Positions 3,523-5,001 of a DNA stretch of 64,000 nucleotides are shown piece by piece. The stretch is from positions 1-64,000 of the forward strand of contig CACNSS010000002.1 of the NCBI GenBank assembly GCA_902623215.1. Direction: 5' to 3'. Each line of letters starts with the position of its first letter. Position 1 is the first letter of the stretch. A program made the translations under genes and the position numbers. The notes under the pieces were generated by a model. The model saw only the letters and a list, made by a program, of their open reading frames with translations. It ran no database searches and was not told where the DNA came from. The DNA comes from an uncultured Pelagibacteraceae bacterium (lineage in GTDB: Bacteria; Pseudomonadota; Alphaproteobacteria; Pelagibacterales; Pelagibacteraceae).

Positions 3523-3849
3523 ATGACTTATTTGGTAAATGATAAATGTATTAAATGCAAACTGACTGACTGTGTTGATGTTTGTCCAGTCGATTGTTTT
3601 TATGAGGGTAAAAATATGCTTGTAATTAAACCCGATGAGTGTATAGATTGTGGCGTTTGCGAACCTGAATGTCCTGTCAACGCTATTCAAGCTGATACAG
3701 AACCAGGAAGCGATAAATGGTTGGAGATCAACAAAAAATATTCTGAAATCTGGCCAAACATAAGTGAAAAAAAGGATCCACCATCGGACCACGAAGATTA
3801 TAAAGATGAGCAAAATAAGTTTGAAAAATATTTTAAAGAAAACGTTTAG
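3523..3849 (+). CDS. fdxA: 7Fe ferredoxin (3Fe-4S/4Fe-4S)
   Basis: [18 protein letters not shown] and [16 protein letters not shown] cluster motifs. Confidence 0.95.
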
Positions 3850-4675
3850 AAAAAAAGCAAAAAAAGCAAAAAAAGTATTAAAAAAAAATGTTACCAAAAA
3901 CTTAAAAAAACAAACTAAGAATATTAAAAAATCTGTAAAATCAAAATTAAAAAAAGTCTCTTTAAAAAAACAAGTTAAAAGTGCTCAAAAGAATATTGAA
4001 TTAAAAACCGAAAATCTTCGGATTTCTAAAGGATCTGAAATTAAGCCTGAAATAAAAAAAGTAAATAAACAAGCTACAGAAAAAAGGGAATATAAAATTA
4101 AAGACCACGTAGTTTATCCAAAACATGGTGTGGGACAGATATGTGAATTTAAGAAAGTTAACATTGGTGGAATAGATGTTGAGACATATGTGATTAAATT
4201 TGAAAAAGATAAAGCGAATGGGATGGTACCAGTTAACAAACAATCTCATCTCCGTCCATTAGCTACTATAAATCAAGTCAATAAATGTATATCAATTTTA
4301 AAAAGTAAGCCAAAAATTAAAAGATCGATGTGGAGTAGAAGAGCCCAAGAATATGAAGCTAAGATTTCATCAGGAAAAATATATGAACTAGCTGAAGTGG
4401 TAAGGGACCTTAACAAAGGTGATGATTTGATGGTCGATCAATCTTATAGTGAGAGACAACTTTTTGAAAAAGCTTATGAGAGAATTTTGTCTGAATTTAA
4501 AATAATATTGAATATTTCTTTAGAAGATACACAAAAAAAATTAGATAAAGCACTAAAAAGAAATTTAGATGGCCAAGCTAAACAAGAAACTGCTGCAGTT
4601 AAAAGTCCAGCACCTGAAATCCAAGATGAGGAACCAATCTCAGAAAGTGATAATGACGAAGGTATTGAGGACTAA
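3806..4675 (+). CDS. CarD/CdnL-family transcription regulator with Lys-rich N-terminal extension
   Basis: [14 protein letters not shown]...[11 protein letters not shown] core of CarD; start at internal Met (3806) is better than 3764; overlaps fdxA. Confidence 0.85.
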
Positions 4676-4716
4676 AAAAAACGCCTCTCATACGTCACGT
4701 AATGAGAAGCGTTTTT
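4676..4716. terminator. Bidirectional intrinsic terminator between carD-like gene and convergent 25-aa ORF
   Basis: AAAAACGC-c-TCTCAT / ATGAGA-a-GCGTTTTT stem, A-run on the left and T-run on the right. Confidence 0.85.
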
Positions 4717-4735
4717 AATAAAGAATACTAAGTAA

Positions 4736-4813
4736 TTATCTTCTTCTTCTTTTCTTAGCTTTTTTCTTAGCTTTTTTCTTAGCCTTCTTCGCTTTTTTTC
4801 TTCTTTTAGCCAT
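4736..4813 (-). CDS. 25-aa hyperbasic Lys/Ala/Arg peptide [25 protein letters not shown]
   Basis: Manual translation of the minus strand; AAAAGGGAG Shine-Dalgarno 6 nt upstream of ATG; promoter-like TTGACA upstream and terminator downstream. Confidence 0.75.
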   Translation of the reverse strand: MAKRRKKAKKAKKKAKKKAKKRRRR

Positions 4814-4835
4814 CTTTAGCTCCCTTTTTAGTTAA

Positions 4836-4855
4836 ACGAATCAAAATTGATTCGT
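4836..4855. promoter_or_regulatory. Perfect inverted repeat ACGAATCAA-AA-TTGATTCGT in the 5' leader of the 25-aa ORF
   Basis: 9-bp perfect arms, 2-nt spacer. Confidence 0.7.
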
Positions 4856-4864
4856 AATAACTTA

Positions 4865-4893
4865 TTTTTATTTTTTTATGTACGTTATGTCAA
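4865..4893 (-). promoter_or_regulatory. Predicted sigma70-type promoter for the 25-aa ORF (TTGACA-N17-TAAAAA)
   Basis: Perfect -35 (4888-4893, minus strand), 17-nt spacer, A/T-rich -10. Confidence 0.55.
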
Positions 4894-5001
4894 TTCTTTA
4901 ATTAAAGAAAAAAATTTTAAAAAAAGATTTTAAATAAAAAAAATTGAAAAAAATTAAATGTATAAAAAAGTTAATGTTTATGCGCTTAATAGACAAATAT
5001 T

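Follow-up and report, generated by a model that had tools for sequence, protein, structure and literature searches.

A lysine- and arginine-rich mini-gene beside carD in the order Pelagibacterales

The chlamydial protein Hc2 (HctB) is described with lengths of 165-237 aa, the size variation arising from lysine-rich repeats (PMC2848022). In the AlgP protein a tail of 195 aa follows a helical N-terminal domain, and peptides containing the KPAA repeat bind DNA (PMC9239181). The mini-gene described here was found beside carD in a window of 64 kb from a SAR11 bacterium, the window being the whole stretch of DNA that was analysed. SAR11 bacteria are among the most abundant cell groups of the ocean, and their minimal genomes contain few regulators. 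The CarD protein of Myxococcus contains an HMGA-like AT-hook domain. Known ribosomal peptides are constant in length and make specific contacts, the short basic ones being placed in rRNA grooves.

Layout of the locus

The original prediction described a minus-strand ORF with a Shine-Dalgarno (SD) sequence, a perfect 9-2-9 inverted repeat, a TTGACA-N17-TAAAAA element and a terminator, and inspection of the sequence located every one of them where it had been placed. The features are listed below by position, where g1 denotes the Pelagibacter-type genus; the family f1 includes g1 and its sister genera, and f2 is the second family.

3764 to 4675, forward strand: carD, the convergent neighbour (Pfam CarD_TRCF_RID and CarD_C)
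4677 to 4716, both strands: bidirectional intrinsic terminator common to carD and the mini-gene, from folding and conservation
4736 to 4813, reverse strand: ORF of 25 aa (ATG at 4813-4811, TAA at 4738-4736), kept as an ORF in relatives
4820 to 4826, reverse strand: Shine-Dalgarno sequence AAGGGAG, 6 nt 5' of the ATG
4836 to 4855, reverse strand: perfect 9-2-9 inverted repeat ACGAATCAA-TT-TTGATTCGT, an RNA hairpin and two head-to-head TGATTCG
4838 to 4842, no strand assigned: GANTC site of the 3' arm, kept in g1 but missing from g5-g7 and from several of the g8-g10 units
4849 to 4853, no strand assigned: GANTC (CcrM) site of the 5' arm, part of the order-wide invariant CGAATC
4865 to 4870, reverse strand: putative -10 element TAAAAA, N17 from TTGACA
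4888 to 4893, reverse strand: putative -35 element TTGACA, with conserved spacing to CGAATC

Apart from the ORF at 4813..4736 (-), no ORF in the 64 kb window combines a length of 20 aa or more with a K/R/A content of 90% or more, and none occurred in 20 simulated Markov-1 windows. The neighbours of the mini-gene are carD (itself after a ferredoxin gene), an acyl-CoA synthetase gene and tRNA-Leu, which was the sole match in an Rfam scan of the window. On its 3' side lies the convergent carD and no co-directional gene, and this orientation is the same in all 11 genera. The terminator stem (4716-4677) reaches -21.1 kcal/mol (z -7.8) on the mini-gene strand and -17.7 kcal/mol (z -6.0) on the carD strand; since the fold is strong on both strands, the terminator is bidirectional, as had been claimed. 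The context of the SD, AGGGAGCTAAAGATG, is near-invariant within g1 (53/55).

Conservation and coding character

Neither the peptide nor its longer orthologues matched any entry in sequence searches of Pfam, NCBIfam and PDB, in line with the earlier remark that no named family could be recognised; the HMMER bias filter suppresses low-complexity queries. A class-wide protein search with the low-complexity query did not recover even the query's own order. Because family searches are uninformative for low-complexity sequence, synteny anchored on carD was relied upon. This search is blind to the peptide and recovered 27 loci from 11 Pelagibacterales genera of two families, while three of the 30 genomes had no carD match and are hence uninformative. 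A K/R/A-rich ORF, convergent to carD and just downstream of it, is present in all 27 loci and thus in all 11 genera sampled. No comparable ORF was found beside carD in 28 loci from other alphaproteobacterial families. All SAR11 bacteria appear to carry a tiny gene beside carD.

The mini-gene unit was recovered by DNA similarity in same-genus genomes, and 110 of the 298 Pelagibacterales genomes contain the exact hairpin-plus-SD pattern. In a public genome collection, the pattern of the 5' unit gave SAR11/Pelagibacterales records only, among the 80 loci listed; carD adjoins the unit in 72 of these, seven have too little sequence and one (L189) is without a carD motif. This distribution bears out the original guess that the DNA comes from SAR11. 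The same pattern is absent from the IMG/VR viral contigs, which leaves a phage origin unsupported.

The substitutions at codon positions 1, 2 and 3 number 33, 49 and 145, and omega is about 0.12 over comparable pairs that are not independent of one another (55 Pelagibacter-type units, 40 distinct ORFs). The spacers between hairpin and SD and between stop and terminator contain indels of every phase in 122 distinct Pelagibacter-type units; the ORF is always in frame, and its 3' end is a K/R-rich tetrad. Neither frameshifts nor stops were found in any of the relatives. The coding constraint, together with the conserved own promoter, SD and terminator, upholds the proposal of a real gene, and the alternative of a small RNA with conservation of RNA structure only did not hold given this omega. 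The locus is a monocistronic protein-coding mini-gene that is conserved throughout the order Pelagibacterales; in the loci of the carD search it is always convergent with carD. The original prediction mentioned neither this orientation nor the order-wide conservation.

The peptide has 20-35 aa in the Pelagibacter-type genus, 21-58 aa in the other f1 genera and 40-91 aa in f2. The size differs between relatives by the number of repeats, and the composition is stable. The residues over 72 distinct peptides are K (1275), A (499), R (405), P (81) and T (62); others are few and placed mostly at the f2 N-terminus. Peptides no longer than 36 aa carry a net charge of +12 to +25 and lack acidic and aromatic residues as well as Cys, His, Asn and Gln. 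The f2 members have H1/Hc2/AlgP-style KKAAPKKK repeats (MEELKVIFAKARKKAKKKAAPKKK-type sequence), and these longer orthologues strengthen the initial guess of an H1/Hc-like protein.

Other H1-like sequences were observed in the same bacteria. SAR11 CarD (3764-4675 (+) in the window; L081-L107) has a long Lys-rich, H1-like N-terminal extension. The CarD of g1 also has an acidic C-terminal tail and that of g6 an RGRP AT-hook-like core, which recalls the HMGA-like Myxococcus CarD. K/A-rich CarD extensions are not specific to SAR11, since four of the 28 other alphaproteobacterial loci contain one (L120, L129, L135, L139). The idea that the peptide pairs with the acidic tail of CarD was abandoned: among the genera read only g1 has this tail, whereas the peptide is order-wide. 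A second H1-like candidate, a protein of 250 aa (MRPGAVLVGNNLGQTLLDNPYSMTS...) with a long KKA-rich tail, is encoded at L108:906-1658 (-) (G000:C10); it is conserved in SAR11 (relatives L109 and L110) and has no Pfam match.

Promoter, 5' hairpin and GANTC sites

Taken alone, the promoter-like match is at chance level (1 found and 1.1 expected from local shuffles of this AT-rich DNA), and its credibility comes from conservation and not from single-sequence significance. The motif TTGAC is placed 38-42 nt 5' of CGAATC in each of the 156 units with enough upstream sequence. The combination of TTGAC and CGAATC gives about one match per genome at the mini-gene promoter in 8/8 genera tested, and matches elsewhere are no more frequent than those of the reversed-pattern control.

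The 5' hairpin of the window is moderate in strength (-8.4 kcal/mol, z -2.4), and all 157 units fold a hairpin that starts in the CGAATC element. Of nine g1 genomes tested, eight contain the inverted repeat at a single place, and the remaining one (G012) has one additional palindrome at another position. The stem is CGAATCA/TGATTCG in g1, includes G-U pairing in several of the g8-g10 units, and reads TCACTTAAA/TTTAAGTGA in g6 and g7, ATCACATAA/TTATGTGAT in g5 and GAATCA(C)/(G)TGATTC in f2. That the fold persists while the stem bases differ speaks for an RNA stem-loop. In the stretch from the 5' hairpin to the start codon, the f2 and g5/g7 units (L100-L107, L091-L098) also have an upstream CCTC/CTCC with which the SD can pair, for example ACCTCTAACTAAACCC...GGGGGGAG, a pairing that is absent in g1. 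Where it occurs, this potential pairing suggests translational or autogenous control.

The original reading of the inverted repeat as a structure of the transcript stands insofar as it folds as an RNA hairpin; beyond the hairpin, the repeat carries the invariant CGAATC, a GANTC element. This hexamer is present in 27/27 carD-anchored loci, which were not selected for it, and does not vary in units that leave CGAA unpaired (g5, most of g6, g7), which argues for a second constraint at the DNA level. A simpler view of the regulation takes the repeat as a plain RNA stabiliser hairpin in which GANTC is incidental. The universal fold and the genus-specific stems are what such a hairpin would give, but RNA pairing leaves the invariance of CGAATC at unpaired positions unexplained. 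Moreover, GANTC is about twofold depleted in the window (95 seen and 188 expected, Markov-1), and yet the only two sites within 15 bp of each other are the pair at 4838/4849. The plain hairpin is consequently given somewhat less than an even chance, an estimate that covers the GANTC sub-question only and stands outside the sum of the readings of function.

The depletion of GANTC in the window accords with an active methylation system of the CcrM type. In related bacteria, DNA marks of this kind set the timing of genes within the cell cycle. GANTC is methylated in Pelagibacter (PMC9516812) and a CcrM homologue is present in SAR11 (PMC3973325). GcrA (PF07750 above the cut-off) is encoded in 15 of 16 SAR11 genomes, and a 17th genome, from another alphaproteobacterium, was positive too. 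Both arms of the g1 repeat match TGATTCG, the extended GcrA activation motif of Caulobacter (TGATTCG / YGAKTCK; PMC7987155). The argument from the motif is suggestive only, since B. subvibrioides has no such extended preference (PMC7987155). Two observations count against a role of GcrA: the GANTC pair is located just 3' of the putative promoter instead of in the spacer from -35 to -10, and several other genera lack the second site. The transcription of the mini-gene is possibly timed by methylation. It is rather doubtful that the full scheme applies, in which CcrM and GcrA at the TGATTCG palindrome would time the shortest known histone-H1-like chromosomal protein and so link the replication state to nucleoid packing, beside a CarD with an H1-like tail.

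Possible functions and relation to known systems

Judged from sequence, the product of the mini-gene is probably an H1-tail-like polycation that acts on nucleic acid or the nucleoid, with a probability of roughly 0.6. It would be a free-standing and probably disordered polycation, equivalent to the C-terminal tail of histone H1 as found in Hc2 and the tail of AlgP. Such a peptide may neutralise and bridge the phosphates of nucleic acids, most likely those of chromosomal DNA. RNA polymerase, together with GcrA acting at the CcrM-methylated GANTC near the start, would transcribe from the sigma70-type promoter, the 5' stem-loop would protect the short and abundant mRNA, and the mini-gene would be abundantly expressed. 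Against this reading, no H1-like protein known to us is nearly as short as the 25-mer, and composition alone cannot separate DNA from RNA, the ribosome or polyphosphate as the partner.

The size and charge of the peptide, its invariant SD context and its stand-alone wiring would also fit a very abundant ribosomal or rRNA-binding protein such as eL41, bTHX or the actinobacterial bS22/bL37. The short members of several genera share an MAKRRKK start and an RRRR-like end, and the tiny bS22 and bL37 are described in bacterial ribosome structures. However, repeat expansion gives the orthologues lengths of 20-91 aa, no specific residues are fixed among them, and the PDB holds no sequence match. Charge and simple repeat are mainly kept while the length drifts fourfold, as H1-like tails such as those of Hc2 and AlgP do, and unlike a ribosomal protein that occupies one fixed site; the ribosomal function is regarded as unlikely. 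The partner could likewise be polyphosphate or another target that is not a nucleic acid. The low-complexity Lys/Ala/Pro repeats resemble the tail of AlgP, which is found at polyphosphate granules (PMC9239181), but AlgP is also a DNA-binding protein and the locus, with carD, ferredoxin and acyl-CoA synthetase genes as neighbours, contains no polyphosphate gene. A polyphosphate-binding peptide is consequently improbable.

An inert peptide, translated as a Lys/Arg leader within an attenuator or a regulatory RNA, is the least probable of these explanations and has a very small chance of being correct. Nearly all codons specify Lys or Arg, the terminator is placed directly 3' of the stop, and read-through would run antisense into carD. 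On the other hand, the next feature is convergent in all genera, so nothing co-directional is available for attenuation, and for this reason the attenuator was rejected; an alternative terminator/antiterminator pairing is not evident. The selection on the amino acids and the sister-lineage versions of up to 91 aa also speak against an inert peptide.

An order-wide gene below the usual length of gene callers would be a missing part of the SAR11 core genome. If the product is an H1-tail-like chromosomal protein, its 20-35 residues would mark a lower limit for a functional histone-like polycation in bacteria, and its GANTC-marked promoter would be a specific CcrM/GcrA target in a lineage from which ctrA is reported to be missing (PMC2877005). 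In earlier work on SAR11, Meyer 2009 (PMC2704228) mentions neither carD nor ferredoxin. At least three unnamed sORFs of strain HIMB5 are indicated in Stav 2019 (PMC6429828), and these may include the ORF beside carD.

H1-like polycations of bacteria are already known; what is new is a stand-alone version of 20-35 aa whose place beside carD is fixed throughout the order and whose start is marked by a GANTC palindrome. As in chlamydial Hc2, the mini-protein is a Lys/Ala-rich, low-complexity polycation whose size varies with the number of lysine-rich repeats, but the SAR11 members have 20-91 aa, belong to a different bacterial class, occupy a fixed place beside carD and show no detectable profile homology. 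The H1-tail-like KPAA tails of AlgP and PhaF in Pseudomonas share AAP/KPA-type repeats with the longer SAR11 members, whereas the mini-protein consists of the tail only. The proteins eL41, bTHX, bS22 and bL37 are likewise about 25 aa long, very rich in Lys and Arg and encoded by a stand-alone gene; in contrast to them, lengths within the SAR11 family differ fourfold, mainly the composition is conserved and the PDB contains no match. Like the CarD of Myxococcus, SAR11 CarD has a basic extension, although it is N-terminal in SAR11, and the mini-protein differs from both in being the product of a separate gene without a CarD domain.
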